Source of the DNA: an alpha proteobacterium U9-1i
GTDB lineage: Bacteria; Pseudomonadota; Alphaproteobacteria; Caulobacterales; Aquidulcibacteraceae
Direction: 5' to 3'
NCBI GenBank assembly: GCA_000974665.1
Contig: BBSY01000002.1
Coordinates: 1,488,001 to 1,552,000 of the forward strand
DNA: 64,000 nt
The notes under the pieces are model-generated. The model saw only the letters and a program-made list of their open reading frames with translations, searched no databases and had not been told where the DNA came from. Position 1 is the stretch's first letter. Each line of letters opens with the position of its first letter. Positions 5,598 through 57,268 of this stretch are shown here, one piece after another. A program made the translations under genes and the position numbers.

Positions 5598-6554
5598 TCA
5601 GAGTCTCGCGCGCGCCGCCTCGTATTGCGCGCCGAGTTCGGCAACGAATTCCGCGACAGGGCGAACACTTTTTATGGCGCCGATGCCTTGCCCGCAGCCC
5701 CAGATGTCTTTCCAGGCTTTGGCGTCTGTGTTGCCGCCGGACCCGAAGTTCATCTTGGATGGATCGGATGCCGGAAGATTGTTTGGGTCGAGGCCAGACG
5801 CTTCGATGGAGCCACGCAGATAATTGCCGTGGATGCCAGTGAAGAGGTTTGAATAGACAATATCCGCGGCCGACCCGTCGACGATGGCTTGCTTGTAGCG
5901 TGCGTCCGCGTTCGCTTCCGCGGTGGCGATAAAGGCGGAGCCCAGATAGGCGAAGTCGGCGCCCATCGCGCGCGCGGCCAATACGCCGGCGCCGTGGGCG
6001 ATCGCGCCGGAAAGCGCCAACGGACCATCGAACCATTGGCGAATCTCTTGGATCAGCGCCATCGGCGAGAGCGTGCCTGCGTGACCGCCCGCGCCCGCCG
6101 CGACGGCGATGACGCCGTCTGCACCTTTCTCCACTGCTTTGCGCGCGAAGCGGTCGTCGATGACATCGTGCAGAGTCAACCCGCCATACGAGTGCACGGC
6201 TTCGTTGAGCTCAGGGCGCGCGCCGAGCGAAGTGATGATGATCGGCACTTTGTGCTTGGTCGTGAGCTCAAGGTCCTGTTCAAGGCGATTGTTGCTCTTG
6301 TGCACGATGTGGTTGACCGCGAAGGGCGCCGCCGGCTTGTCCGGATTATTCGCATTGTAGTCGGCCAATTCCTCTGTGACGCGCGCGAGCCATTCGTCGA
6401 GCATCGCGATCGGGCGTGCGTTGAGAGCGGGGAAGGAGCCGACGATACCGGCTTTGCATTGCGCAATGACCAAGTCGGGGTTGGAGATAATGAAGAGCGG
6501 CGCGCCGATCACCGGCAAGCGCATTTTCTTCAGCAATTCAGCTGCCTGCCCCAT
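5598..6554 (-). CDS. Nitronate monooxygenase (NMO/2-nitropropane dioxygenase family)
   Basis: A 318-residue TIM-barrel flavoprotein. The N-terminus LPVIGAPLFIISNPDLV, the central GADGVIAVAAGAGGHAG (phosphate/FMN loop) and ALSGAIAHGAGVLAARAMGADFAYLGSAF are hallmark segments of FMN-dependent nitronate monooxygenases and related enoyl-reductase-like proteins. Many proteobacterial catabolic clusters carry such paralogues with unknown substrates, so the nitronate activity is not certain. It is divergent from nothing close by; upstream (6555-6641) is a short gap with a GGTATCC sequence, then the end of a tetR gene on the same strand. Confidence 0.85.
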   Translation of the reverse strand: MGQAAELLKKMRLPVIGAPLFIISNPDLVIAQCKAGIVGSFPALNARPIAMLDEWLARVTEELADYNANNPDKPAAPFAVNHIVHKSNNRLEQDLELTTKHKVPIIITSLGARPELNEAVHSYGGLTLHDVIDDRFARKAVEKGADGVIAVAAGAGGHAGTLSPMALIQEIRQWFDGPLALSGAIAHGAGVLAARAMGADFAYLGSAFIATAEANADARYKQAIVDGSAADIVYSNLFTGIHGNYLRGSIEASGLDPNNLPASDPSKMNFGSGGNTDAKAWKDIWGCGQGIGAIKSVRPVAEFVAELGAQYEAARARL

Positions 6555-6641
6555 ACGCTTGCGTCATCCTCATTAAATGGTATCCTAATTGCACTAGTTC
6601 TAGATTGGGATGTCAAGCCGATGCGAAAGCGCGGATTGAAC

Positions 6642-7238
6642 TCATCGCAACAAGCGCGTGAGCGCGTCACGGAAGATTTCCGCGTTGACGCGCGAGGGAT
6701 CGCTCAATCTTTCAAGCGTCAATCCGTTGGCCAGCGCGACGAACACCATCGACGCCGAATCCAGACGCGCGTCGCTCGCACGCCCCCCATCGACCAGCGG
6801 GCGCAGCAATTCCACGATCTCAGCGCGCAGCTTGGAACGCATCGTCGCCAACGCCTTCGCAATGCGCGGCCGGCGCGACGCATGCATCGCGAACTCAGCA
6901 AAGCAGGTCGACCACGGCGCGTCTTCGATCGCGCGCTCGGCGAGAAACGTCGAGATCGAGTCGATCGTCACTTTGCCGTCGCGACTCGTCGCCTCGTTGC
7001 GATAGCGCGTGATGTTCCGCATCACGTGGCCCTCCATCACCGCGAGCATCAATTCGTCCTTACCCTTGAAGCTCGAATAGACGGCGCCTTTCGTGAGATG
7101 CGCGGATTTTGCGATGGCGTCGAGCGACGCGGCCTGGAATCCGCTTTTTCGGAAATGGCTCTCGGCCGCCTTCAAGACGGCTTCGCGTGTGACCTCGCGA
7201 GGCGGCCGCATTTTCGCTGGTTTAGCTGGCTTTCGCAT
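6642..7238 (-). CDS. TetR-family transcriptional regulator
   Basis: A 198-residue regulator. Residues about 12-60 form a TetR helix-turn-helix (TREAVLKAAESHFRKSGF, SLDAIAKSAHLTKGAVYSSF, then KDELMLAVME). The C-terminal ligand domain is variable. ATG at 7238 is chosen because the homologous region starts just after it; upstream in-frame codons add an unrelated arginine-rich stretch. The gene is divergent from the aldolase/dioxygenase pair at 7310, and a small palindrome (7243-7255) lies 5 bp before its start, suggesting autoregulation and control of the divergent genes or of the nitronate monooxygenase downstream. Confidence 0.87.
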   Translation of the reverse strand: MRKPAKPAKMRPPREVTREAVLKAAESHFRKSGFQAASLDAIAKSAHLTKGAVYSSFKGKDELMLAVMEGHVMRNITRYRNEATSRDGKVTIDSISTFLAERAIEDAPWSTCFAEFAMHASRRPRIAKALATMRSKLRAEIVELLRPLVDGGRASDARLDSASMVFVALANGLTLERLSDPSRVNAEIFRDALTRLLR

Positions 7239-7242
7239 TACG

Positions 7243-7255
7243 ATACCGATGGTAT
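7243..7255. promoter_or_regulatory. Candidate operator palindrome in divergent promoter
   Basis: ATACC-GAT-GGTAT is a perfect 5-bp inverted repeat with a 3-bp spacer, lying between the divergent tetR gene and the aldolase gene. TetR proteins commonly bind such sites near their own start. The 10-mer ATACCGATGG recurs in reverse orientation at 12570-12579 in front of the gntR gene. Confidence 0.45.
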
Positions 7256-7309
7256 TGACTCTGTAGGGGTGGCGCCGCAGGTTTCTCCTCGGGAGAAGAG
7301 CAAACTGAT

Positions 7310-8074
7310 ATGACGGCTGACACTGCTGCGTGCAAAGTAGCGCCCAATCCAGTCGAGGCACGGCTGCGCCGCGATCTGGCGGCGGCCTATCGCCTTGTGG
7401 CGATGTATGGCTGGGATGATCTTCTGTTCACGCATCTCTCGGTCCGCATTCCAGGGCCGGAGCATCATTTTTTGCTCAATCCTTTCGGGCTGATGTTCGA
7501 AGAGGTGACTGCGTCGTCTCTGGTGAAGGTCGATTTGGATGGCAATATCGTCGAGCCGACCGAATTCCTCGTAAACAGCGCCGGCTTCACAATCCATTCC
7601 GCGGTTCACGCCGGGCGCGAGGACGCGCATTGCGTCATCCACATTCATACGGTCGCGGGGACGGGCGTCTCCTGCCAAGAGCATGGGCTGTTGCCGATCC
7701 ATCAAGAGGCGATGTTGATCCAGTCGCAGCTCGCCTATCACGATTATGAGGGCGTGGCCTTCAATCACGAGGAGCGCCCGCGTCTTGTCGCCGATTTGGC
7801 GGATAAGAACTACATGATCCTGCGCAATCACGGGACGCTGACTGTCGGCCGCTCGGTCGCGGAGGCGTTCTCGCGCATGTATCACCTTGAACGCGCCTGT
7901 CAGATGCAAATCGCGGCGCTCGCCGGGCCTGGCCGCGTGATTGCGCCCGGCGAGGACGTGCAGGCGGTGACGCGTGCGCAGGGCGAGGGCAACCAGCAAA
8001 TGGCGGCCGACAATTACATTTGGCCGGCGCTTTTGCGCAAACTGGATCGGCTCGGCGCTGACTACGCGCGCTGA
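7310..8074 (+). CDS. Class II aldolase/adducin-family protein
   Basis: A 254-residue protein of the class II (zinc-dependent) aldolase/adducin fold. It has YGWDDLLFTHLSVRIPG at the N-terminus, HAGREDAHCVIHIHT with the H-x-H zinc ligands, and NHGTLTVGRSVAEAFSRMYHLERACQ with the later histidine, all typical of the family that includes fuculose-phosphate aldolase and HpaH-like decarboxylases. The actual reaction (retro-aldol or decarboxylation) cannot be told. GGGAGAAG lies upstream of the ATG. The next gene, a TauD-like dioxygenase, follows 46 bp later, and the pair ends at a strong terminator at 9193. Confidence 0.87.
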   Translation: MTADTAACKVAPNPVEARLRRDLAAAYRLVAMYGWDDLLFTHLSVRIPGPEHHFLLNPFGLMFEEVTASSLVKVDLDGNIVEPTEFLVNSAGFTIHSAVHAGREDAHCVIHIHTVAGTGVSCQEHGLLPIHQEAMLIQSQLAYHDYEGVAFNHEERPRLVADLADKNYMILRNHGTLTVGRSVAEAFSRMYHLERACQMQIAALAGPGRVIAPGEDVQAVTRAQGEGNQQMAADNYIWPALLRKLDRLGADYAR

Positions 8075-8120
8075 CACAATATGCGCGCGGCAACGCACCG
8101 CGCGCGCTTGGGAGGTTGAA

Positions 8121-9164
8121 ATGGCGGACAGTGCGACACGCACGGAAGCAGCGAATTATGGCTTGCCAGCCGATGTCACTGCCGCGCCCTACGACGAGCA
8201 CGGATTGCCGCTGATGGTGTATCCGCTGACGGACGCATTGAAAACGGACCCAAAAGCGGCGATCGATTGGTATCTAACGCATCGCGAAAAAGTCGAAGCC
8301 CAGTTGCCGCACTTCGGCGGCGTCGTCTTGCGCGGCTTCGCCATTCCGAACACCGACACCTTCAACGCGATGATCGATTGTTACCAAACCGATCCGCACG
8401 GCTACGCCGGCGGATTGACGCCGCGCAGCAACGTCTCGGGCAAAGTGTTCGAAGCTTCACGCGTGCCGGCTGACCAGAAAATCATCCTTCACCAAGAGAT
8501 GGGCTATTTGCCGGCCTTTCCGCGGATGCTGGCGTTCTATTGTTTGCTGGCGTCGGAAACCGGCGGCTGCACAACCATTGGCGATATGCGTCGCTATCAG
8601 AAGCAGATCCCACAAAAGTTGCTGGATTCCGTGCGTGAGCGCGGCGTTCTCTATCGGCGCAATTATCGCGCGCCGGGACCGGTGGCCGATCCGCTGATCG
8701 CGCTGTTCCGCCGCGAATGGACGGAGGTGCTGCAAGTCCAAACCAAAGAGGAGGCCGAAGCGGCCTGCCGTGGCGTGGGCTGCACGCCGGTGTGGGAAGA
8801 AGATGGCTCGCTCTCGATGCATTATCGCGCGCCGGGCTTCGTGCGCCATTCGATCACCGGCGAAGAGGTATGGTTCGCACAAGTGCAAGGCATGCATTTC
8901 AATGCGGCGCGCCTTGCTGAAAATTACGACAAGATCGTCACGGCGTTCCCGGCTGGACGTCCGCGCCCGATCGAAATCTTGTATGGCGACGGCGGCGATA
9001 TTCCGGAAGATTTGGTGACGCCGCTCTACGAGATTCTCGACAATCTCGCAGTCAACATTCCTTACGAGCATGGCGACTTCATGCTGCTCGACAACATTTA
9101 CACCGCTCATGGGCGTCAGCCCTACACCGGCAATCGCAACGTGCAGGTCGGGCTGATGTTCTAG
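8121..9164 (+). CDS. TauD/TfdA-family 2-oxoglutarate Fe(II) dioxygenase
   Basis: A 347-residue dioxygenase. The core HQEMGYLPAFPRMLAFYC supplies the H-x-E iron-binding pair and FPR, ETGGCTTIGDMR matches the TauD family 'GGET.i.D.r' segment, and DNIYTAHGRQPYTGNR carries the distal histidine and the arginine that holds 2-oxoglutarate. The iron acid is Glu rather than Asp, as in SyrP-like members. The start at 8121 has GGAGG at 8111-8115; an overlapping longer frame from 7974 would run into the aldolase gene. It probably hydroxylates an intermediate of the surrounding catabolic pathway. Confidence 0.87.
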   Translation: MADSATRTEAANYGLPADVTAAPYDEHGLPLMVYPLTDALKTDPKAAIDWYLTHREKVEAQLPHFGGVVLRGFAIPNTDTFNAMIDCYQTDPHGYAGGLTPRSNVSGKVFEASRVPADQKIILHQEMGYLPAFPRMLAFYCLLASETGGCTTIGDMRRYQKQIPQKLLDSVRERGVLYRRNYRAPGPVADPLIALFRREWTEVLQVQTKEEAEAACRGVGCTPVWEEDGSLSMHYRAPGFVRHSITGEEVWFAQVQGMHFNAARLAENYDKIVTAFPAGRPRPIEILYGDGGDIPEDLVTPLYEILDNLAVNIPYEHGDFMLLDNIYTAHGRQPYTGNRNVQVGLMF

Positions 9165-9192
9165 CTAACTGGGGCTCCTCCACCCCTCTTGA

Positions 9193-9228
9193 CGCGCACG
9201 CTTCCCCGAAGCGTGCGCGTTTCCTTTA
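9193..9228 (+). terminator. Rho-independent terminator
   Basis: A perfect 12-bp stem (9193-9204 with 9208-9219, core GCACGCTTC/GAAGCGTGC) with loop CCC is followed by TTTCCTTT. It ends the aldolase/dioxygenase transcript and may also serve the convergent oxidoreductase gene that ends at 9226. Confidence 0.85.
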
Positions 9229-10221
9229 TACGCCGCGCGGACGAAGGCCGGCCGCGCGATACACGGCGTCAATAATTTCCATGTTGATGATGCCGGAATG
9301 GACGTCGGTCTCCACGATACGTTCGCGGGCGGCGTGCTCGATAAAGGCGCGTGCCTGAAACATGTAGGTCGTCATGGCGTCCGCGTGTTCGAGCAATTCC
9401 ATCTTCGCGGTTTGCAGGCGCAATTCGCCGCTATTGTGGGGAAGATACGGCCGCGTCGCATGGATCGCACCTTCTGAGCCGACGATGCTGATGGCGGACT
9501 CGGTCTCGGGGTGAGGCGAGATGTGCGAGACGTGGAAGTCAGCCGTCACACCGTTTGGAAATGCGAGCTCGGCATGCATGGCGCCGTCGATTTCGGGCAA
9601 TGAAAGTTCGGCCTTCGCGGACACCACGCGTGGCGTTTCGCCGACGAGGTACCGCATGGCGTCGATAGCGTAGACGCCCAAATCCATCGTGACACCGCCG
9701 CCAAGTGCGGCGTTGCGGCGAATGTTGTCGGCCTTCATTCGCGCGCCTGGCACGTGGCCAATGATCGAAAGGCTTTTTAGGTCACCAATGGCGCCGGCGT
9801 CGATCAGCTGCTTTATGCGCCGAATGAATGTGTGATAGCGATAATGGAAGGCCTCAACGAAGACGCCGCCGGTGCGATCGACGGTGTCGCGCAATGTGCG
9901 CGCTTCGTCCGCGTTCATAGCCAACGGCTTTTCGCAGAGCACCGGTTTACCCGCCTCAAGGGCGGCGATCGACCATTCGACGTGCTGCGAGTTCGGCAGC
10001 GGGATGTAGATTGCGTCGACATCGTGAGAGGCGATCGCCGCGTGATAATCGCCGAACGCGTGCGCGATGCCATGCTCCGCGGCGTAGGCCTGAGCTTTGT
10101 CGAGTGAGCGTGAGGCGATTGCAGTTGGGACAAAGCCAGGCGCGCCAGCTGCTGCGTCGAGGATCGCGACTTTATTGATGTGCGCGGCGCCAAGAATGCC
10201 CACTCTCAAACGCTTGTTCAT
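9226..10221 (-). CDS. Gfo/Idh/MocA-family NAD(P)-dependent oxidoreductase
   Basis: A 331-residue protein. The N-terminal Rossmann segment RVGILGAAHINKVAI is followed by the family-typical VDAIYIPLPNSQHVEW and GKPVLCEKPLAMNADEA, with the EKP catalytic lysine, and the C-terminal beta-sheet domain with NIRRNAALGGGVTMDLGVYAI. Such enzymes act on sugars, inositols or trans-dihydrodiols. The ATG at 10221 has GGGAG eight bases before it; longer upstream frames run into a tandem repeat (PSL repeats) and are not credible. It is divergent from the esterase/beta-lactamase gene. Confidence 0.9.
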   Translation of the reverse strand: MNKRLRVGILGAAHINKVAILDAAAGAPGFVPTAIASRSLDKAQAYAAEHGIAHAFGDYHAAIASHDVDAIYIPLPNSQHVEWSIAALEAGKPVLCEKPLAMNADEARTLRDTVDRTGGVFVEAFHYRYHTFIRRIKQLIDAGAIGDLKSLSIIGHVPGARMKADNIRRNAALGGGVTMDLGVYAIDAMRYLVGETPRVVSAKAELSLPEIDGAMHAELAFPNGVTADFHVSHISPHPETESAISIVGSEGAIHATRPYLPHNSGELRLQTAKMELLEHADAMTTYMFQARAFIEHAARERIVETDVHSGIINMEIIDAVYRAAGLRPRGV

Positions 10222-10267
10222 CCGCATCGCTCCCTCGACGGCCGCTTTGACCAGCGCTAAATTATAA

Positions 10268-10293
10268 GGTGTAATATATAGAATAATTGAATG
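10268..10293 (+). promoter_or_regulatory. AT-rich promoter with motif shared by the paralogous gene
   Basis: This stretch contains GGTGTAATATAT (10268-10279) and ATAATTGAATG (10283-10293). The 11-mer GTGTAATATAT recurs upstream of the paralogous lipoprotein gene (complement of 37366-37376), GGTGTAAT recurs upstream of the TonB receptor (14033-14040), and ATAATTGAATG recurs upstream of the KstD-like gene (24742-24752). It is a candidate common promoter or operator element of the cluster. Confidence 0.45.
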
Positions 10294-10391
10294 CGAAGGA
10301 AGCGAAGGAAGCGAAGGAAGCGAAGGAAGCGAAGGAAGCGAAGGAAGCGAAGGAAGCGAAGGAAGCGAAGGAAGCGAAGGAAGCGATGGAA
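10293..10391 (+). repeat. 9-bp tandem repeat GCGAAGGAA, ten perfect copies plus one variant
   Basis: Ten exact copies of GCGAAGGAA fill 10293-10382, followed by the variant GCGATGGAA that holds the ATG of the next gene. Every unit contains AAGGAAG, a Shine-Dalgarno-like sequence. If read from the TTG at 10287 the array encodes Ala-Lys-Glu repeats in frame with the downstream protein; on the other strand it reads Pro-Ser-Leu. The unit length keeps the frame whatever the copy number. Confidence 0.95.
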
Positions 10392-11687
10392 GTTCGCCGC
10401 GTCGATGTTTTGCGTGCATTCGTCGGGACGGCGCTGTTCGGCGGCGCGAGTGCATGCGCAACGCGCGACGACGCCGAGCATTCTGCTGGATTCGCCGCCG
10501 ACGGCTTGCACGCGCTCGATGCGGAGATGGCCGCGGTGGTGGCGCGGGGCGAGGTGAGAGGCATCACGACACTGCTGCTTCACAATGGTCGCGAGGTAGC
10601 GTCGCAATGTGTCGGTGAGCGGAACGCAGTCACGCGTGCGCCAATGACGCGTGACACGATTTTCCGCATCTATTCGATGTCCAAGCCAATCACCGCAGTT
10701 GCGATGATGATGCTTTATGAGCAGGGCAGGTGGCGGCTTGACGACCCGATCACGGATTATCTGCCCGAGATGCACGCCCTGCGCGTCGCCAGAACTGCAG
10801 ATGCCGATGGCGCACCGATGTTTGAAGGCGTGAACCGCACGCCCACTATGCGGGAATTGATGACGCACACGGCTGGTTTTGCTTACGGCATGCCTGATGG
10901 CCGGATCGCCAATACGCTTTTCCGCCGGGCGAACATACCGGGGTCGGCGGACATGGATGATTTCGTGCGCAGGGTTGCGGCGTTGCCTTTGCTGGAGCAG
11001 CCCGGCGTCGAGTGGGTGTATTCGGTGGCGGTCGATCTGCAAGGCGCGATCATTCAGCGCCTGTCGGGGCAAGCACTTGGCGCGTACATGCGTGACCGCA
11101 TTTTTGCGCCGCTCGGCATGCGCGACACCGGCTTTGTTGTGCCGGCGCAAGATCTCGATCGTGTGGCGGATATCTACGACACCGATCACCAAACCGGCGC
11201 GCTCATTCGCACCTCGCCGCAAGCAAATGGCTTCGGTTCCAGTCAAGATTATAGCCAACAGCCACACGTGGAATCTGGCGGCGGCGGCCTTGTGTCGACC
11301 ATCGACGATTACGCGCGCTTCGCGCAGATGATCTTGAACGGAGGCGTGTTCGATGGCGTTCGCATTCTGCGCGCGGAAACCGTCGCGCTGATGAGCGTCA
11401 ATCACCTCGATGCTGCGGTGCTCAACAATTCCGACGCTGCGGGTCGCGGCTTTGGCCCTTCGCGCGGCTTTGGCTTGGGCTTTATGGTCGAGACTTATCC
11501 GCAAAGCGCGGGCAGGCCGGAGGGGCGCGGGACGCTAAGTTGGACCGGCGCGGCCGGCACTTGGTTCTGGGCCGATCCCGCGAACAAGATTGTGTTCGTT
11601 GGCATGGTGCAGCGTATGGATGATCCCACGCGGCACGCGCGCTATCTCGCTTCGAGGCGTTTGGTGTATGCTGCGCTGGCTCAATAG
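10386..11687 (+). CDS. Beta-lactamase-fold serine hydrolase, probable lipoprotein (EstB-like)
   Basis: A 433-residue serine hydrolase of the class C beta-lactamase/penicillin-binding fold. The nucleophile motif S-x-x-K is YSMSKPITAV, the second motif is YSVAVDL, and WTGAAGT lies near the third motif region. The N-terminus VRRVDVLRAFVGTALFGGASAC looks like a signal peptide ending in a lipoprotein cysteine, so the protein is likely in the cell envelope. ATG 10386 is the last repeat unit of a tandem array; a TTG start at 10287 would add eleven AKE units before the signal peptide and is less likely. It is paralogous to the gene at 36086-37342. Probable role: ester hydrolysis of the imported substrate. 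Confidence 0.85.
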   Translation: MEVRRVDVLRAFVGTALFGGASACATRDDAEHSAGFAADGLHALDAEMAAVVARGEVRGITTLLLHNGREVASQCVGERNAVTRAPMTRDTIFRIYSMSKPITAVAMMMLYEQGRWRLDDPITDYLPEMHALRVARTADADGAPMFEGVNRTPTMRELMTHTAGFAYGMPDGRIANTLFRRANIPGSADMDDFVRRVAALPLLEQPGVEWVYSVAVDLQGAIIQRLSGQALGAYMRDRIFAPLGMRDTGFVVPAQDLDRVADIYDTDHQTGALIRTSPQANGFGSSQDYSQQPHVESGGGGLVSTIDDYARFAQMILNGGVFDGVRILRAETVALMSVNHLDAAVLNNSDAAGRGFGPSRGFGLGFMVETYPQSAGRPEGRGTLSWTGAAGTWFWADPANKIVFVGMVQRMDDPTRHARYLASRRLVYAALAQ

Positions 11688-12463
11688 AGCGAAAGCGGGG
11701 AGCTTTCGCCGAGTTCCTCGAGAATGATCTTGCGGGCGTTTTGCATGTGATAGCGCCAGATCACCTCCGCGCCCGGGCCATCGCGCGCAACCAGCGCGTC
11801 CAGCAATTGCGAGTGATTTGTGTAAGAATGGTTGTTCAGTGTCGGCAAATCGCGACGGCCGCTGGAAATGAACTGATTGAGATGGCGCAAATAAAGTTCA
11901 TCGAGCATGCCGACAATGATGGCGAGCGCGATGTTGCCTGCACGACTGACCAAAATGCGGTGAAACTCGGCCGCCGCCGGCGCGAACAGCTTCGAGTTAT
12001 CGACGATTTTGCGTTCGCGTTCCAAATGCGCGCGGATAACGGCGAGATCATCTTCCGTGCGATTCTGCGCGAGCTGATTCATCAGCGGCGGCTCGAGTAT
12101 GAGGCGCGCGTCGAACATGTCTTTCAGTGTGGCGCCGCGGACCTGCAGCAATAGGCCGAGAGATTTCGCGGCGTTATCTTCTCGCGGCAATCGGATGCGG
12201 GCGCCGCCTTGTGCGCCACGCTTAACCTCGATCAGCCCTTCCGTTTCGAGAATGCGCAACGCCTCACGCAATGACGCGCGCGACACACTGAAATCGACGA
12301 TCAGATCGGCTTCCGACGGTAACGCGTCGCCCTCCTGCAAATCGCCTTGTGCAATGCGCTGACGAAGCGCGTCGGCGATCAATTCGGCGGCTTTCGGCAC
12401 ACGTACGCTGTGCGGTGAGCCCGCTGGCGGTTGCAGTCGCACGATTTTTGCGGATCGCTTCAC
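11681..12463 (-). CDS. GntR/FadR-family transcriptional regulator (FCD domain)
   Basis: A 260-residue regulator. Residues about 23-90 form a winged helix (GDALPSEADLIVDFSVSRAS, LREALRILETEGLIEVKRG) and residues about 105-240 an all-helical FCD ligand domain with DMFDARLILEPPLMNQLA and the AAAEFHRILVSRAGN metal/ligand region. Its 3' end overlaps the convergent hydrolase gene by 7 bp. The 118-bp leader holds a perfect 9-bp inverted repeat (12534-12558), the likely operator. FCD regulators usually sense acids, so the ligand may be a carboxylic acid or CoA ester of the pathway. Confidence 0.9.
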   Translation of the reverse strand: MKRSAKIVRLQPPAGSPHSVRVPKAAELIADALRQRIAQGDLQEGDALPSEADLIVDFSVSRASLREALRILETEGLIEVKRGAQGGARIRLPREDNAAKSLGLLLQVRGATLKDMFDARLILEPPLMNQLAQNRTEDDLAVIRAHLERERKIVDNSKLFAPAAAEFHRILVSRAGNIALAIIVGMLDELYLRHLNQFISSGRRDLPTLNNHSYTNHSQLLDALVARDGPGAEVIWRYHMQNARKIILEELGESSPLSLY

Positions 12464-12533
12464 GTTGCTCTCAATTCAACTTTACCGGTTCGCGCCCCGG
12501 TTTTGCTACTTGGGTCTTAGCGCAAGCCTAATC

Positions 12534-12558
12534 GTATGAATAGTATCATTATTCATAC
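12534..12558. promoter_or_regulatory. Candidate GntR operator, perfect 9-bp inverted repeat
   Basis: GTATGAATA (12534-12542) and TATTCATAC (12550-12558) are exact reverse complements around a 7-bp spacer GTATCAT. The site lies 71 bp upstream of the gntR start and just downstream of the MFS stop. The size and AT-rich character fit a FadR/VanR-type operator, and autoregulation is the simplest reading. Confidence 0.6.
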
Positions 12559-12581
12559 AATAGGTCTCGCCATCGGTATGC

Positions 12582-13919
12582 CTAATCCGCGGAGGCCGGT
12601 GACGCTGCATGCGGCGGCACGGCGGACTTGGAACCCATCGTCATCAACCCCGGGCGCGCCATCAACGCGAAGATGCAGCCCAATGGTCCAGCGATCGCGG
12701 CGACTGCAAAGCCAAGGTTCAGCGGCGCCTCTTCGCCGCCGATGAGTCCGGCCGCGACGGGTACAACGCTGGGGCCAATGCCGTCGGCGATGAGTGCTGT
12801 CAGGAGCAAACACACGGCCATGAACTCACCGCGCGTCTGTGCCGGCGCGTAGAGTTGAATGGACACCATGATCAACACGCCCGTGCCCATGGTCACAAAC
12901 ATTGTCGCGCCAAGTGCTGTGAGAAAAAGGTCTGCCGTTGGAGCGAATGCAGCGATCAAGGTGAAAACCGCGCCGCTCGCCATGCCGGCGGTGAGAACTA
13001 GAGGCGGCGCATCTGCTTTGCCCGAACGCAACCAGGCTTCGGTTAGCGCCGGTACGATTACCATGCCGCCTACGCCGCATATCATGGTGATGAGGCCCAT
13101 GGAAATGCCGGCGTCGCTGATCGCCCAATCGAACTCGCGGTGTAGATAAGATGGCGTCCAGGCAACGAGACCGCGAACGATGATTTGGCCGATCGCGCCA
13201 GCGAGAAAAAGCAACAGGAGCGGGCGCCATTGGCGGTGCAGCCATGCGCCAGAAATGGCGTGGGAATCCTCGGAACTATGCTGAATCCGCTTCGGCTCTT
13301 CGAGCGTGAGTACGATAAGAAGCGTGAGCACGGCGGCAGGTGCGGCGGCGGCAAAGAACACGGCCTGCCAAGGCTGCACACTGCCAACGACTGGCAGCAT
13401 TAGCGATTCAACATCGCCGATTGCGCCGACCATTTGCCCGCCGAGCATGTAGCCGCCCGTCGCGCCTAGCGCGCCCAGCGCCATGTAAATGCTTGTCGCC
13501 CGGCCGCGCTGTGATTGCGGGAAGAGGTCGCCAATCATGGAAATAACGCTTGGGCTCAATGCGGCTTCGCCGATGGCGACGCCGATGCGCAGCAGACATA
13601 GAACCCAGAACGCCGACGCCATGCCGGAGAAGAACGTGCATGAGGCCCAAACGATCGACGTCAGGATGATCAGATTGCGGCGGTTTACACGGTCCGCGAG
13701 GCGGCCCATCGGGATACCAACCAACGCGTAGAAGAGCGCGAAATTGAATCCGATGAGCAAACTGATTTGCGTGTCGGAGACGTTGAATTGCTCGCGAATG
13801 GGCTCGACGAGCAGTGCGAGAATTACGCGGTCGAGAAACGCTACGATATAAAGTGCGCCAAGTAGGCCCACGGCGTACCAGGCGCGCGGGCCCGCCTTAT
13901 CGATTGTGCTCGACTGCAT
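12582..13919 (-). CDS. MFS transporter, Spinster-like
   Basis: A 445-residue inner-membrane carrier with about twelve hydrophobic segments, YIVAFLDRVILALLVEPIR in helix 1 and GIPMGRLADRVNRRNLI as the motif A loop. It is homologous to the carrier at 3610-4968. ATG 13919 has GGGAGGGAG before it. The gene is divergent from the TonB receptor (195-bp shared upstream region) and precedes gntR on the same strand, so TonB receptor plus this carrier make a plausible outer plus inner membrane uptake route for the substrate. Confidence 0.88.
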   Translation of the reverse strand: MQSSTIDKAGPRAWYAVGLLGALYIVAFLDRVILALLVEPIREQFNVSDTQISLLIGFNFALFYALVGIPMGRLADRVNRRNLIILTSIVWASCTFFSGMASAFWVLCLLRIGVAIGEAALSPSVISMIGDLFPQSQRGRATSIYMALGALGATGGYMLGGQMVGAIGDVESLMLPVVGSVQPWQAVFFAAAAPAAVLTLLIVLTLEEPKRIQHSSEDSHAISGAWLHRQWRPLLLLFLAGAIGQIIVRGLVAWTPSYLHREFDWAISDAGISMGLITMICGVGGMVIVPALTEAWLRSGKADAPPLVLTAGMASGAVFTLIAAFAPTADLFLTALGATMFVTMGTGVLIMVSIQLYAPAQTRGEFMAVCLLLTALIADGIGPSVVPVAAGLIGGEEAPLNLGFAVAAIAGPLGCIFALMARPGLMTMGSKSAVPPHAASPASAD

Positions 13920-14032
13920 GCACTCCCTCCCTCAGCGCCCTCTGCGTGGCGTCTCGCGGTGTGGATTTTTAGCCGCATTCGACGACTGACAGCGCCGAGT
14001 TCCAAAGAAACGCAAATCCACCGTTGCCATAT

Positions 14033-14040
14033 GGTGTAAT
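14033..14040 (+). promoter_or_regulatory. GGTGTAAT motif upstream of TonB receptor
   Basis: GGTGTAAT here matches the element found in front of both beta-lactamase-fold lipoprotein genes (10268 and complement of 37366-37376). It lies 74 bp before the receptor start in the 195-bp divergent region between the MFS and TonB genes; no clear sigma-70 boxes were recognised there. Confidence 0.3.
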
Positions 14041-14114
14041 CTTTGCAATATCTGGCGGCAAGCGGTGGCCTGGGTCTAAACCCAAAAAAGCGTCAACCGC
14101 AGGGGAGGAAAGTA

Positions 14115-16319
14115 ATGGAGAATGGGCGTCATCGCGGCCTATTGGCCGCGGCTTTGCTGGGCAGCGCTGCTGCTTTTCTGGGACCGGCGCCGCTTGCCAT
14201 GGCTCAAGACGCCGAGGAGCAAGCGGCCAATACAGACGATATCGTCGTCACCGCGCAACGGCGCGAACAGAGCATTCAAGATGTCCCGATTTCGATCGCC
14301 GCCATGTCGGCTGAGCGGATCGAGGATTCTGGTCTCACAAACTTCGCCAATCTCGAGCAGTCGATCTCCGGCCTTACCACAGTTGCAAATGGCGACGCCC
14401 GCGCGGCGCGTATTGGTATTCGCGGCGTCACAACTGCGCAGGAGAACGGTAAGCAATCGTCGGTTGGCGTCTATGTCGACGGCGTGTTCATGTCGCGCGT
14501 CGGCATGTCGTTCGCCGATCTGCCCGATGTTGAGCGCATCGAAGTGCTGCGCGGCCCGCAAGGCACGCTGTTCGGCATGAATACGGCCGCGGGCTTGATC
14601 CACATGATCACAGCGCGTCCTGACCTCGACGAATTCGGCGGCCACGTTGAAACGGTGATCGGCAATTACGATCGCATCGAGGCCCGCGGCTCTATAACAG
14701 GGCCGATCGTGCCTGGTAGGCTGGGCTTCAGCCTAGGGGCGACGTCCACGAACCGTGGCGGCATTATCTACAACAGCACGCTGGGCAGGGACGTTGACGA
14801 TCTTGATCGCTGGGGCATCCGCGGCAAGCTTTTGTACGATGGCGACGATGTCAGCGCGCTTTTCATTGCTGATTATCAAGAAGAAGATTCCAATTGCTGC
14901 GTGAAGGTGCTTTCGCACCTGCGCCCGCCCGCGACTTTCTCTGGCTTCGGTAGCGTCACCGCCTTGGCGCCTCCGGGCTTCCCATTCGCGCGCGTCGCCG
15001 TCACCAACGTGCCGAACTACAACCGCCCAGAAGGCGGCGGGTTGTCGGCCGAGGTGACGTGGGATCTGGACGGAGGCTACACGCTGACCTCGCTTTCGGC
15101 TTGGCGCACGTGGAGCATCTTCCACCAAGACGATCCAGACGGCCTGCCGATCGACGGCATCACCGGCTTCCGCATTTGGCAAGATCACGACCAGATCAGC
15201 CAGGAAGTGCGCTTGGCGTCGCCAGTTGACGGCATGTTCTCCTGGCAAGTCGGCCTTTTCTATTTCGATCGCAATTCGACCTCGGACGATTACATCACCT
15301 ATCCGAGCACGCTTCGTGGGCTCGGTCAGGACGGCACCAACATCAACAATTTCGAGATCGAGGCGCAGACGCTCGCCGCGTTCGGCCACGTGACCTGGAA
15401 TCTGACCGACCGGCTCTCGGCGACCGGCGGCGTGCGCTACACAAACGAAACGCAAGACGCGCACGCGGTGCAGGTCTCCAACAATTTGGCGAACCCGAGC
15501 TTCAACCGCACGGCCTCGCTGGACGAAGGCGCCACCACCTGGAACGTGAGCGCGGAGTACGACATCTCCGACGACATCATGATCTACGCTGCGGCGGGGC
15601 ACGGCTTTAAGCCGGGCGGATTTGACATGAACCGCACCGCGGCGTTCACGACGTTCACCTTCGAAGAGGAAACCAACACCAACATCGAAGCCGGCGTCCG
15701 CTCGGTGTTGTTCGACAATCGGTTGTTGCTAAACGCGACGGTTTTCAACACGAACTTTGAGAACTTTCAGACCCTCGCTTTCGACGGCCTGCGCTTCTTC
15801 AACACCAACGCGCCGGAATTCGAAACACGGGGCCTTGAAATCGAAACCACGTTGCATCCGACCGACAATCTGACGCTGCGCGGTTCGGCCACGTTCATCA
15901 ACACCGAGTACATCTCGTTCCCGAACGGGCCGTGCCCGCAAGGCGTGGCTGGTTCGTGCAACCTGACTGGGCGCAAGCTCTATCAAGCGCCGGACACCAC
16001 ATGGGCGGTCTCTGCGCAGTACGAACACGAACTCACCGAAGCATGGAATTGGTTCGCTCTCGGCGAATACAATTATCGTTCAGGCGCGTATTCAGGCGCC
16101 TCGCTCGATCCCTATCTTCACCAAAACGGCTTCGGCCTCGCCAACTTCCGCCTAGGCGTGGAGAGCGACGAGGGATTGAGGCTCGAAGCTTGGGTCCGCA
16201 ATGCCTTCAACGAAGACTACATGAACTTCGAATTCAACTCGCCGCTGCTGACGGGTGGCTACGCCGGTTTCGTTGGCGAGCCTCAGATGTATGGCGTGCG
16301 CATCCGCAAGGAGTTTTGA
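14115..16319 (+). CDS. TonB-dependent receptor
   Basis: A 734-residue outer-membrane receptor. A signal peptide ends after AMA at residue 30. DDIVVTAQRREQ is the usual TonB-box/plug start of the alphaproteobacterial family, the plug continues with YVDGVFMSR and VEVLRGPQGTLFGMNTAAG-like sequence, and the barrel ends in an aromatic residue (RIRKEF). ATG 14115 has GGGGAGGAA directly upstream; an in-frame TTG at 14043 adds residues before the signal peptide. It probably imports a large hydrophobic compound used by the catabolic cluster. A terminator follows, so it is a single-gene unit. Confidence 0.93.
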   Translation: MENGRHRGLLAAALLGSAAAFLGPAPLAMAQDAEEQAANTDDIVVTAQRREQSIQDVPISIAAMSAERIEDSGLTNFANLEQSISGLTTVANGDARAARIGIRGVTTAQENGKQSSVGVYVDGVFMSRVGMSFADLPDVERIEVLRGPQGTLFGMNTAAGLIHMITARPDLDEFGGHVETVIGNYDRIEARGSITGPIVPGRLGFSLGATSTNRGGIIYNSTLGRDVDDLDRWGIRGKLLYDGDDVSALFIADYQEEDSNCCVKVLSHLRPPATFSGFGSVTALAPPGFPFARVAVTNVPNYNRPEGGGLSAEVTWDLDGGYTLTSLSAWRTWSIFHQDDPDGLPIDGITGFRIWQDHDQISQEVRLASPVDGMFSWQVGLFYFDRNSTSDDYITYPSTLRGLGQDGTNINNFEIEAQTLAAFGHVTWNLTDRLSATGGVRYTNETQDAHAVQVSNNLANPSFNRTASLDEGATTWNVSAEYDISDDIMIYAAAGHGFKPGGFDMNRTAAFTTFTFEEETNTNIEAGVRSVLFDNRLLLNATVFNTNFENFQTLAFDGLRFFNTNAPEFETRGLEIETTLHPTDNLTLRGSATFINTEYISFPNGPCPQGVAGSCNLTGRKLYQAPDTTWAVSAQYEHELTEAWNWFALGEYNYRSGAYSGASLDPYLHQNGFGLANFRLGVESDEGLRLEAWVRNAFNEDYMNFEFNSPLLTGGYAGFVGEPQMYGVRIRKEF

Positions 16320-23625: not shown

Positions 23626-24683
23626 AAAAGTATCGGATCGCTGTCATTGCTGGAGACGGCATTGGCCGTGAGGTGATGCCAGAGGGGCTGCGCGTGCTGG
23701 CGTCGGCTGGTGCGGTGTTTGGGTTCGAGATCGAAGCGCGCGCGTTTGATTGGTCGTGCGAGACGTTCAAAGCGACCGGAAAAATGATGCCGGACGACGG
23801 ACTCGACCGGCTGCGCGAGCACGACGCAGTGCTTTTGGGCGCGGTGGGCTTCCCAGGCGTGCCAGACCATATCTCGCTCTGGGGACTTTTGATTCCGATC
23901 CGGCGCGGGTTCGATCAGTACGTCAATCTGCGCCCGGTGCGTTTGCTGCGTGGCGTGCAATCTCCGCTGCGCGACGTGAACCCCGGCGACATCGACATGT
24001 GGATCGTCCGCGAAAACAGCGAGGGCGAGTACTCGCAAATCGGGGGCAGGTTGTTTGAGGGCACGCCGCAGGAAACCGTCACCCAAGTCTCCACTTTCAC
24101 GCGACGCGGCACCGATCGGATCATCACCTACGCCTTCGAACTCGCGAGGCGTTTGAACCGCACTCGCGTAAGCTCCGCCACCAAATCCAACGGGCTGTTT
24201 CATTCGATGCCGTTCTGGGATGAGCGTTTTACGGAGATTGCGGCGCGCTATCCGGAAATCGCCTCCGACCTGCAGCACGTGGATATCATGGCCGCGCGCA
24301 TGGTGATGCAGCCGAAGAAGTTCGACGTCGTCGTCGCCAGCAATTTGTTTGGCGACATCCTTTCCGATTTGGGGCCGGGCGTGACGGGAACGATCGCCAT
24401 GGCGCCGTCCGCCAACATCAATCCCGAGCGGATTTATCCGTCGCTGTTCGAACCCGTGCACGGTTCGGCGCCCGACATTTCCGGCAGGGGCCTCGCCAAC
24501 CCGATTGGCATGATCTGGTCGGTGGCGATGATGCTCGATCATCTCGGCGCACCCGAGGCCGGCGCCGCAATCGTGCGCGCCATCGAGGAATTGCTTGCCG
24601 ATGAGGCCGCGCCGCGAACCCCCGACCTTGGCGGCACGGCTGCCACCGCTGATGTTGGCGCCGCGATCGCGGCGAGGATTTAA
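23622..24683 (+). CDS. Isocitrate/isopropylmalate dehydrogenase family, tartrate/D-malate dehydrogenase-like
   Basis: A 353-residue beta-decarboxylating dehydrogenase. It has the opening IAVIAGDGIGREVMPEG, RPVRLLRG for substrate carboxylate binding, VRENSEGEYSQIGGR, and the metal-binding aspartates in VVVASNLFGDILSDLG, then FEPVHGSAPDISGRG. The NSEGEY pattern points to the tartrate dehydrogenase/D-malate dehydrogenase branch rather than LeuB or Icd. The GTG start overlaps the synthetase stop (GTGA), so it belongs to the same operon and may decarboxylate a 2-hydroxy acid released from the substrate. Confidence 0.88.
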   Translation: MKKYRIAVIAGDGIGREVMPEGLRVLASAGAVFGFEIEARAFDWSCETFKATGKMMPDDGLDRLREHDAVLLGAVGFPGVPDHISLWGLLIPIRRGFDQYVNLRPVRLLRGVQSPLRDVNPGDIDMWIVRENSEGEYSQIGGRLFEGTPQETVTQVSTFTRRGTDRIITYAFELARRLNRTRVSSATKSNGLFHSMPFWDERFTEIAARYPEIASDLQHVDIMAARMVMQPKKFDVVVASNLFGDILSDLGPGVTGTIAMAPSANINPERIYPSLFEPVHGSAPDISGRGLANPIGMIWSVAMMLDHLGAPEAGAAIVRAIEELLADEAAPRTPDLGGTAATADVGAAIAARI

Positions 24684-55300: not shown

Positions 55301-57268
55301 CCGAGCTTCTCACCTGGTCAAGCCCAAGTCGGCCTGCGGTTGCGCGCGATCGTTCAATACACGGACGACGGCGGGACACTCGAAACGCTGATCACGGCGG
55401 GCAGCGGTCCAACCGGCGACCACCAGGTCGGCGGCGCGGGCATCAACACCTTCAACGGCACCGCGTTTGACGATTGGCAAGAAGGCGGCGGCGGCGCCGA
55501 CAATCTCAACGGCAACGCAGGCGACGACATCCTTGATGGCGGCGCGGCTGGCGACACCCTCAACGGCGGCATCGGCTTGGATACGCTGCTTGGCGGCGCC
55601 GGAAACGACAACATGAATGGAGGCGCCGGCGCCGACAATATGTCGGGCAACGACGGCAACGACACCTACAGCGTTGATGATGTCGGCGATGTCGTGAACG
55701 AACTCGCGGGGCAGGGTACCGACACCGTCGAAACCGACCTCGCTGCTTACACGCTCACTGACAACGTCGAGAACCTCACCTACACCGGCGCCGGCGCCTT
55801 TGCGGGCGCCGGCAACGGCCTCGCCAACACCATCAATGGCGGCGGCGCTGGCGACACGCTCAATGGCTTGGACGGCAATGACACGCTGAACGGCAATGGC
55901 GGCGCCGACACGCTCAACGGCGGCGCTGGCGTTGACACGCTGAACGGCGGCGCTGGCGATGACACGCTGAATGGCGGTCTCGGCAACGACTCGCTGCAAG
56001 GCGGCGCGGGAACCGACACGGCGTCCTACGTCGGCGAAATCGCGGACATGTTCGTCAACCTCACCGCCAACAACACGCGGCGCGGGGCGGCGGCCAACCC
56101 GGTTGAAGACACGCTCAACTCGATCGAGAACGCCACCGGCGGCTCTGGCAATGACACGTTGACCGGCAACGCGGCCGTGAACGTGCTCAATGGCGGCGCT
56201 GGCGATGACACGATCATCGGTCAAGGCGGCGCGGACGCTCTGCTTGGCGGTGCGGGGAACGATACGTTCGTCTACGCCATGGGCGACGGCGCGGACTCCG
56301 TTGACGGCGGCGCCGACACCGACACGCTCAACATTACGGGCGGGGCCGGCGCGGATACGCTGGACGTGGTCTGGAATGGCGCGGCGATCACTTCGGTCGA
56401 AGGCGGCGCAGTCACGGGTGTGGAGGCCATCAACGCCAATCTCGGCGGCGGGGCCAACGTGATCACCTATGCCGGTTCAAACGCGGCGGTTGTCGTCGAC
56501 CTCGCCACCAACACCGCGAGCGGCTTTGCCTCTATCGCTGGTGTTGCGAGTGTCACCGGCGGCAACGCCGGCGACACGCTCACGGGCGGCGCGGGCGTGC
56601 AAACGCTGAATGGCGGCGGCGGATCGGATACGCTTGATGGCGGCGCAGGCAACGACAACCTGAACGGCGGCGCCGGTGATGACACCTATATCGCCAACCA
56701 AGGCGACATCATCACCGAAGCCGCGGGCGCGGCGGGCGGTACGGATATCGTGTTCACTGCGAGCAACACTTTCACGCTCGCGGCCAACGTCGAAAATCTG
56801 ACGTTCACCGGCGTCGGCAACTTCAACGCTACCGGCAACGGCTCCAACAACGTCATCACGGCCGGCAACGGCACCAACGTGCTGAACGGTGGCGGCGGCT
56901 CGGATACTCTGATCGGCGGCACCGGTGTCGACGCGCTCAATGGCGGTGGCGACAACGATATCCTGATCGGCGGCCTCGGCAACGACGTGATGAACGGCGA
57001 TGGCGGCAGCGACACCTTTGTGATGGGCGTTGGCTTCGGCAACGACACCATCAACGGTTTCGACGCCAACCCGAACCCGGATCAGGACTTCGTTGATCTG
57101 ACCGCGCTCGGCATCAACGCCGGGAATTTCGCGGCCCGCGTGGTGATCCAAGATCTCGGCACAAACATGCTGGTGACGATCGACGGTGTGAACACCATCC
57201 TCTTCAACGGCGTCACCGGCGTCGGCGCCAACACGATCACCCAGCAGGACTTCATCCTGGCGCCGTGA
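46373..57268 (+). CDS. Giant secreted RTX protein with two animal-type heme peroxidase domains
   Basis: A 3631-residue protein without a signal peptide. Module 1: heme peroxidase about residues 105-850, RTX repeats 922-1110, a conserved 'LNVRISVR...ERLQFADQ' domain 1237-1345, Ig-like domain 1346-1456. Module 2 repeats this: peroxidase 1581-2326, RTX 2375-2546, the same domain 2684-2800, two Ig-like domains to 3015. Then comes a C-terminal RTX block (3018-3553) and a 75-residue end suited to type I secretion. Distal Q178/H182 and H1658 lie in [11 protein letters not shown], proximal H571 and H2051 in [11 protein letters not shown]. The position of the distal arginine (REHN in myeloperoxidase) is A464 and N1940. 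Related bacterial peroxidase-RTX proteins are known, normally with fewer modules. Type I secretion genes lie just downstream on the other strand. Confidence 0.92.
46379..54770 (+). repeat. Intragenic tandem duplication of the peroxidase module
   Basis: The segment beginning at about 46376 ([12 protein letters not shown]) is repeated from about 50804 ([12 protein letters not shown]), an offset of exactly 1476 codons through the distal histidine and asparagine positions, widening to 1480 by the proximal histidine. Similarity runs through the peroxidase, RTX and following domain of both copies up to about 54770. Long runs are identical at protein level (for example the stretch with [20 protein letters not shown]), so the duplication is not ancient or is kept alike. 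Confidence 0.9.
55426..57030 (+). repeat. C-terminal RTX (GGxGxDxLx) calcium-binding repeat block
   Basis: Dozens of nonapeptides of the GGAGNDTLN type ([34 protein letters not shown] and others) interrupted by [12 protein letters not shown]- and [12 protein letters not shown]-type strands. These bind calcium outside the cell and form beta rolls that help folding after type I secretion. Confidence 0.93.

Follow-up and report, generated by a model that had tools for sequence, protein, structure and literature searches.

Ten head-to-tail copies of a purine-rich 9-mer run directly into the start codon of a serine hydrolase gene in the alphaproteobacterium U9-1i, and the question is whether this array controls the gene, encodes part of its product or is a by-product of copying. 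The locus lies in a 64,000-nucleotide stretch of the genome (the window; Table 1). An earlier note had described ten exact copies ending at the hydrolase ATG, as confirmed here by the sequence and by TRF (period 9, 11.1 copies, 98% matches, score 193, 10293-10392), and an eleventh unit that supplies the start codon; a single A to T change in that unit indeed makes ATG 10386. The range that it gave, 10287-10391, contains the array, but the first six bases, TTGAAT, are not repeat. Ten exact 9-mers in a row are far beyond chance, and as a head-to-tail series of perfect copies the array is a long simple sequence repeat, or minisatellite. Its unit of 9 nt bears out the expectation that whole-unit changes in copy number would keep the reading frame.

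The array between two divergent genes

The array is situated between the serine hydrolase gene, at whose start codon it ends, and a divergent gene for a Gfo/Idh/MocA oxidoreductase. The hydrolase matches PF00144 with an E value of 7e-69, and its best solved relatives, 7u1b/7uda from Caulobacter, align over residues 5-431 (379 bits), nearly the full length; it thus combines the Pfam domain, the SxxK motif and the full-length similarity to a solved member by which we recognized EstG-like serine hydrolases. Where compared by eye, the 7u1b/7uda sequence agrees with the Caulobacter vibrioides gene, and we take the protein to be EstG. In Caulobacter, the substrate of EstG is a cyclic glucose hexamer, and the enzyme is known both for activity on cyclic glucan and for a role in envelope integrity (PMC11389396). 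The signal-peptide-like N-terminus and the closest solved relative, a Caulobacter protein, make the earlier label of envelope hydrolase a reasonable putative one.

Relatives at ~50% identity occur in Phenylobacterium and Caulobacter. Despite this likeness to the EstG-like proteins of Caulobacter, the U9-1i gene differs in that it adjoins unrelated metabolic genes, is preceded by an array that its relatives lack and is not conserved in its own genus. No close ortholog of either the hydrolase or the oxidoreductase gene was found in 30 genomes of the genus, so the locus is lineage-specific there. The interval 5598-16319 of the window may be a catabolic neighbourhood, with genes for a class II aldolase, a TauD-like dioxygenase, the Gfo/Idh/MocA oxidoreductase, the serine hydrolase, a GntR/FCD regulator, an MFS transporter and a TonB receptor.

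Between the divergent genes, the 35-base AT-rich patch that precedes the array is plausible as a promoter region, judging from its composition. A search near the array returned neither a sigma-70 consensus promoter nor a terminator, and a Caulobacter-type promoter, looked for by eye, was rejected because the spacing does not fit.

Table 1. Coordinates of the array, its surroundings and the other arrays discussed in the text (window positions unless a contig is named).
Feature	Position	Strand	Description
Oxidoreductase gene	9226..10221	-	Gfo/Idh/MocA family; divergent, upstream of the hydrolase gene
AT-rich patch	10258..10292	.	14% GC; 35 bases leading up to the array, within the divergent intergenic region; putative promoter region
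Alternative starts	10284..10292	+	Ahead of the array: TAA stop, TTG 10287, ATG 10291 (out of frame); not favoured
Array	10293..10382	+	GCGAAGGAA x10, exact tandem copies (sequence, TRF)
Last array unit	10374..10382	+	AAGGA ends 4 nt before ATG; AAGGA of the preceding unit ends 13 nt before
Eleventh unit	10383..10391	+	GCGATGGAA, one-base variant (A to T); contains start codon ATG 10386
Serine hydrolase gene	10386..11687	+	PF00144, SMSK motif, signal-peptide-like N-terminus MEVRRVDVLRAFVGTALFGGASAC; probable start ATG 10386
Truncated metK copy	C2, about 1200151-1200537	-	128 aa; contains the TTGGCT x11.5 array
GAGCCA x12 array	C3, about 809958-810056		Pro-Glu repeat, N-terminal part of PBP1-like 1019-aa frame
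AGGAARCGC array	Genome G209 (same order), C17, about 23775-23833	-	~Seven units; comF on one side, a methyltransferase gene on the other

Leader or coding sequence

The frame that begins at TTG 10287 is open through the array and into the hydrolase (466 aa), with the in-frame TAA at 10284-10286 in front of it. A start at this codon would place 33 extra residues, mostly AKE, ahead of the signal peptide. The relatives are organized differently: one ordinary G-rich Shine-Dalgarno (SD) sequence, for example GGGAGGGGAAG, precedes the start codon, and only a short signal peptide separates that codon from the conserved domain. From ATG 10386 the hydrophobic stretch begins ~6 residues in by hydropathy, in the layout of the relatives, whereas the sole SD-like match for TTG 10287, AAGGTG, is ~15 nt upstream. 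Because ATG 10386 reproduces the relatives' arrangement and TTG 10287 is poorly placed, we read the array, with moderate confidence, as most likely a 5′ leader and not protein, and ATG 10386 as the most likely translation start.

The competing proposal, an AKE repeat peptide that begins at TTG 10287 and would form an (AKE)10 N-terminal helix before the signal peptide, draws on the open frame and on a unit length that is a multiple of three. It also gains from the other arrays of the genome. In 1.664 Mb (41% of the genome, window included), three perfect arrays reach 20 bp and three copies or more; their units are 6, 6 and 9 nt, and both arrays other than the one under study lie in reading frames, neither of them in front of a gene. 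Since all three unit lengths are divisible by three and the other two arrays are in frame, translated arrays fit slightly better, a point against an origin in a leader. We nevertheless judge the translated reading distinctly unlikely. TTG is a weak start codon, here without a well-spaced SD; the relatives begin directly before their signal peptides and carry no comparable extension; and an n-region of ~40 residues would be unusual.

Shine-Dalgarno likeness and copy number

The claim that every unit carries AAGGAAG is correct as to the letters; of these, only the 5 nt of AAGGA match the SD core. The units are SD-like, so that the description of the array as a string of possible ribosome sites is half right; the likeness is mostly a matter of composition, and the AAGGA copies near SD range are those of the last two units only, the others being out of range. 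Against an anti-SD assumed to be the alphaproteobacterial one (the 16S 3′ tail was likewise assumed and is not this genome's own), the unit's letters can be rearranged in 70 circular orders, of which 63% pair at least as well as the unit itself; for random 9-mers at the GC content of the window the share is 9%. SD likeness is therefore to be expected of a purine-rich repeat. It is largely a by-product of the purine-rich letters and weak evidence of function, a reminder that may serve for other repeats of this kind.

The effect of copy number on translation was explored with a rough, hand-made initiation model that is not fitted to the organism. In this rough model the SD term changes strongly from one copy to two and is flat from 2 to 20, while the opening energy remains at 12.2-14.8 kcal/mol throughout the copy-number series. 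The first copy alone is, in the same rough model, too close to the ATG, so going from one copy to two could have had an effect; above two, the model predicts that copy number should hardly affect translation. The array leader folds less than its own shuffles (z +1.86), and a hairpin in the leader was rejected on that account.

These results bear on the earlier suggestion of a contingency-like switch, according to which slippage would alter the number of copies, and each SD-like unit or 9-nt step would change transcription or translation of the hydrolase in a manner graded within the population. Contingency loci usually come in sets, and the array is the sole one of its kind in the genome; neither a related locus nor a copy-number variant turned up in the sampled genomes. 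Within the 41% of the genome surveyed, similar arrays before other surface or envelope genes, the usual sign of such a set, were absent; the other two arrays sit in a PBP-like coding region and in a metK remnant. The position directly before the start codon and the perfection of the units speak for the switch, as do uspA1 and uspA2, whose expression is tuned by arrays located between promoter and start (PMC4679880, PMC7302503). In the rough model the SD term no longer changes once two copies are present; tuning by copy number finds no support here, and we regard a switch as unlikely. More improbable still is the specific form in which the array of SD units would act as a graded translational tuner, with several ribosome landing sites and one start, for an envelope esterase outside the well-studied host-adapted pathogens. 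Were copy number to tune expression, the repeated unit would itself be the ribosome-binding sequence, and the locus would offer an easy test of extra upstream SDs.

Origin of the array and comparison with known repeats

The 4.05 Mb genome has no second array of the GCGAAGGAA unit; elsewhere in it just two-mismatch scraps of the unit were seen. Three exact units had no match in any other of 60 family genomes or of 398 genomes sampled across the phylum; five AAGGA at nine-nt spacing were absent from all others of 398 genomes of the order, and relaxed units (AGGAARCGN) from all others of 385 genomes of the class. Among the fetched loci of hydrolase orthologs (~50% identity), none had an array before the gene. 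A dispersed repeat family is ruled out by the lack of a second copy in the genome and of any match in the sampled relatives. A phage or mobile origin was also rejected, since a stretch of three units has two matches in IMG/VR, both within unrelated phage ORFs that encode SEG-type repeats. An assembly artefact, which an odd metK copy had brought to mind, is argued against, if short of formal exclusion, by an intact metK elsewhere and by an array that at 100 bp is shorter than ordinary reads.

The same distribution weighs on the idea that the units serve as binding sites, whether for 30S standby, for ribosomal protein S1 or for some other regulator that binds RNA or DNA, much as proposed for the TAACTGA repeats of Beggiatoaceae. 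The leader is purine-rich and poorly structured, as such a role would favour, and a binding role has been proposed for repeats that lie immediately ahead of start codons (PMC4679880). Unlike dispersed regulatory repeats, the U9-1i array is confined to one locus and is found in no sampled relative, and a binding function seems to us very unlikely.

The metK remnant provides a local example of how an array can grow where the product is broken, and we counted it in favour of slippage. It consists of the N-terminus, (AK)11 and the C-terminus, with the middle missing and the AK units specified by a perfect array of 6-nt repeats; the intact metK (PF02773 match at C2:447685-448116) reads GDGRDKAKNKAFTKEIIASLQPK and has just KAKNKA at the array position. 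From the two sequences, KAK evidently grew to ~eleven AK units from a short seed by slippage in the broken gene. The window also contains imperfect repeats of 27/54 nt at 55484-57012 that encode GGxGxDxLx-like nonapeptides, as in RTX proteins.

On balance we think it fairly probable that the U9-1i array arose by slippage as a minisatellite within the 5′ leader of the EstG-like gene, was seeded in the ribosome-binding region and is neutral or nearly so; it is probably a rare and recent product of copying slippage. The one-base difference of the eleventh unit and the perfect identity of the other ten suggest a seed made up of the ribosome-binding and start region, in which two near-identical 9-mers, GCGAAGGAA-GCGATGGAA, lay side by side, and an expansion of this seed to ten identical units in the U9-1i lineage. 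Translation from ATG 10386 would rely on the SD-like AAGGA in the final unit or the final two, and the other units would add length to a leader that is open and weakly structured. Copy number would then probably shift over time in 9-bp steps that leave the frame undisturbed and have little effect on expression. The array is more likely to be a clean example of a purine-rich ribosome-binding region seeding a tandem array than a tuner.

A parallel case is the AGGAARCGC array of genome G209. It is likewise a purine-rich 9-nt array, close to the start of a gene and flanked by divergent genes, but the genes are others and the unit differs by one base, and the two arrays are not homologous. Long simple sequence repeats with units of 5-11 nt are, to our knowledge, mostly without known function. 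As far as the work of Mrazek et al. is represented in PMC4679880, the U9-1i array resembles this class in its unit of 9 nt, a multiple of three, and in being longer than chance, and differs in that the class is defined by genome-wide statistics.

Two better characterized systems place repeats at gene starts. In marine Beggiatoaceae, 169 sets of TAACTGA direct repeats are distributed genome-wide, and no more than a few nt separate their ends from start codons (PMC4679880). Both these and the U9-1i array are forward direct repeats that overlap the expected ribosome-binding site near a start codon (PMC4679880); theirs precede many genes and have little SD character, whereas the U9-1i array is single and its unit is SD-like. 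In Moraxella catarrhalis, the AGAT repeats of uspA2 and the poly-G tract of uspA1 lie between promoter and start and have measured effects (PMC4679880, PMC7302503). Here too a perfect short array precedes the start codon, and slippage can change its copies without altering the protein. The Moraxella arrays have 4-nt or 1-nt units, strain-variable copy numbers and measured effects on mRNA, whereas that of U9-1i, known from its sequence, has a 9-nt unit overlapping the ribosome-binding site and the start codon at one locus. The array belongs neither to a dispersed family nor, in the 41% of the genome sampled, to a set of contingency loci; by analogy it could in principle work like the uspA1/uspA2 or the TAACTGA repeats.
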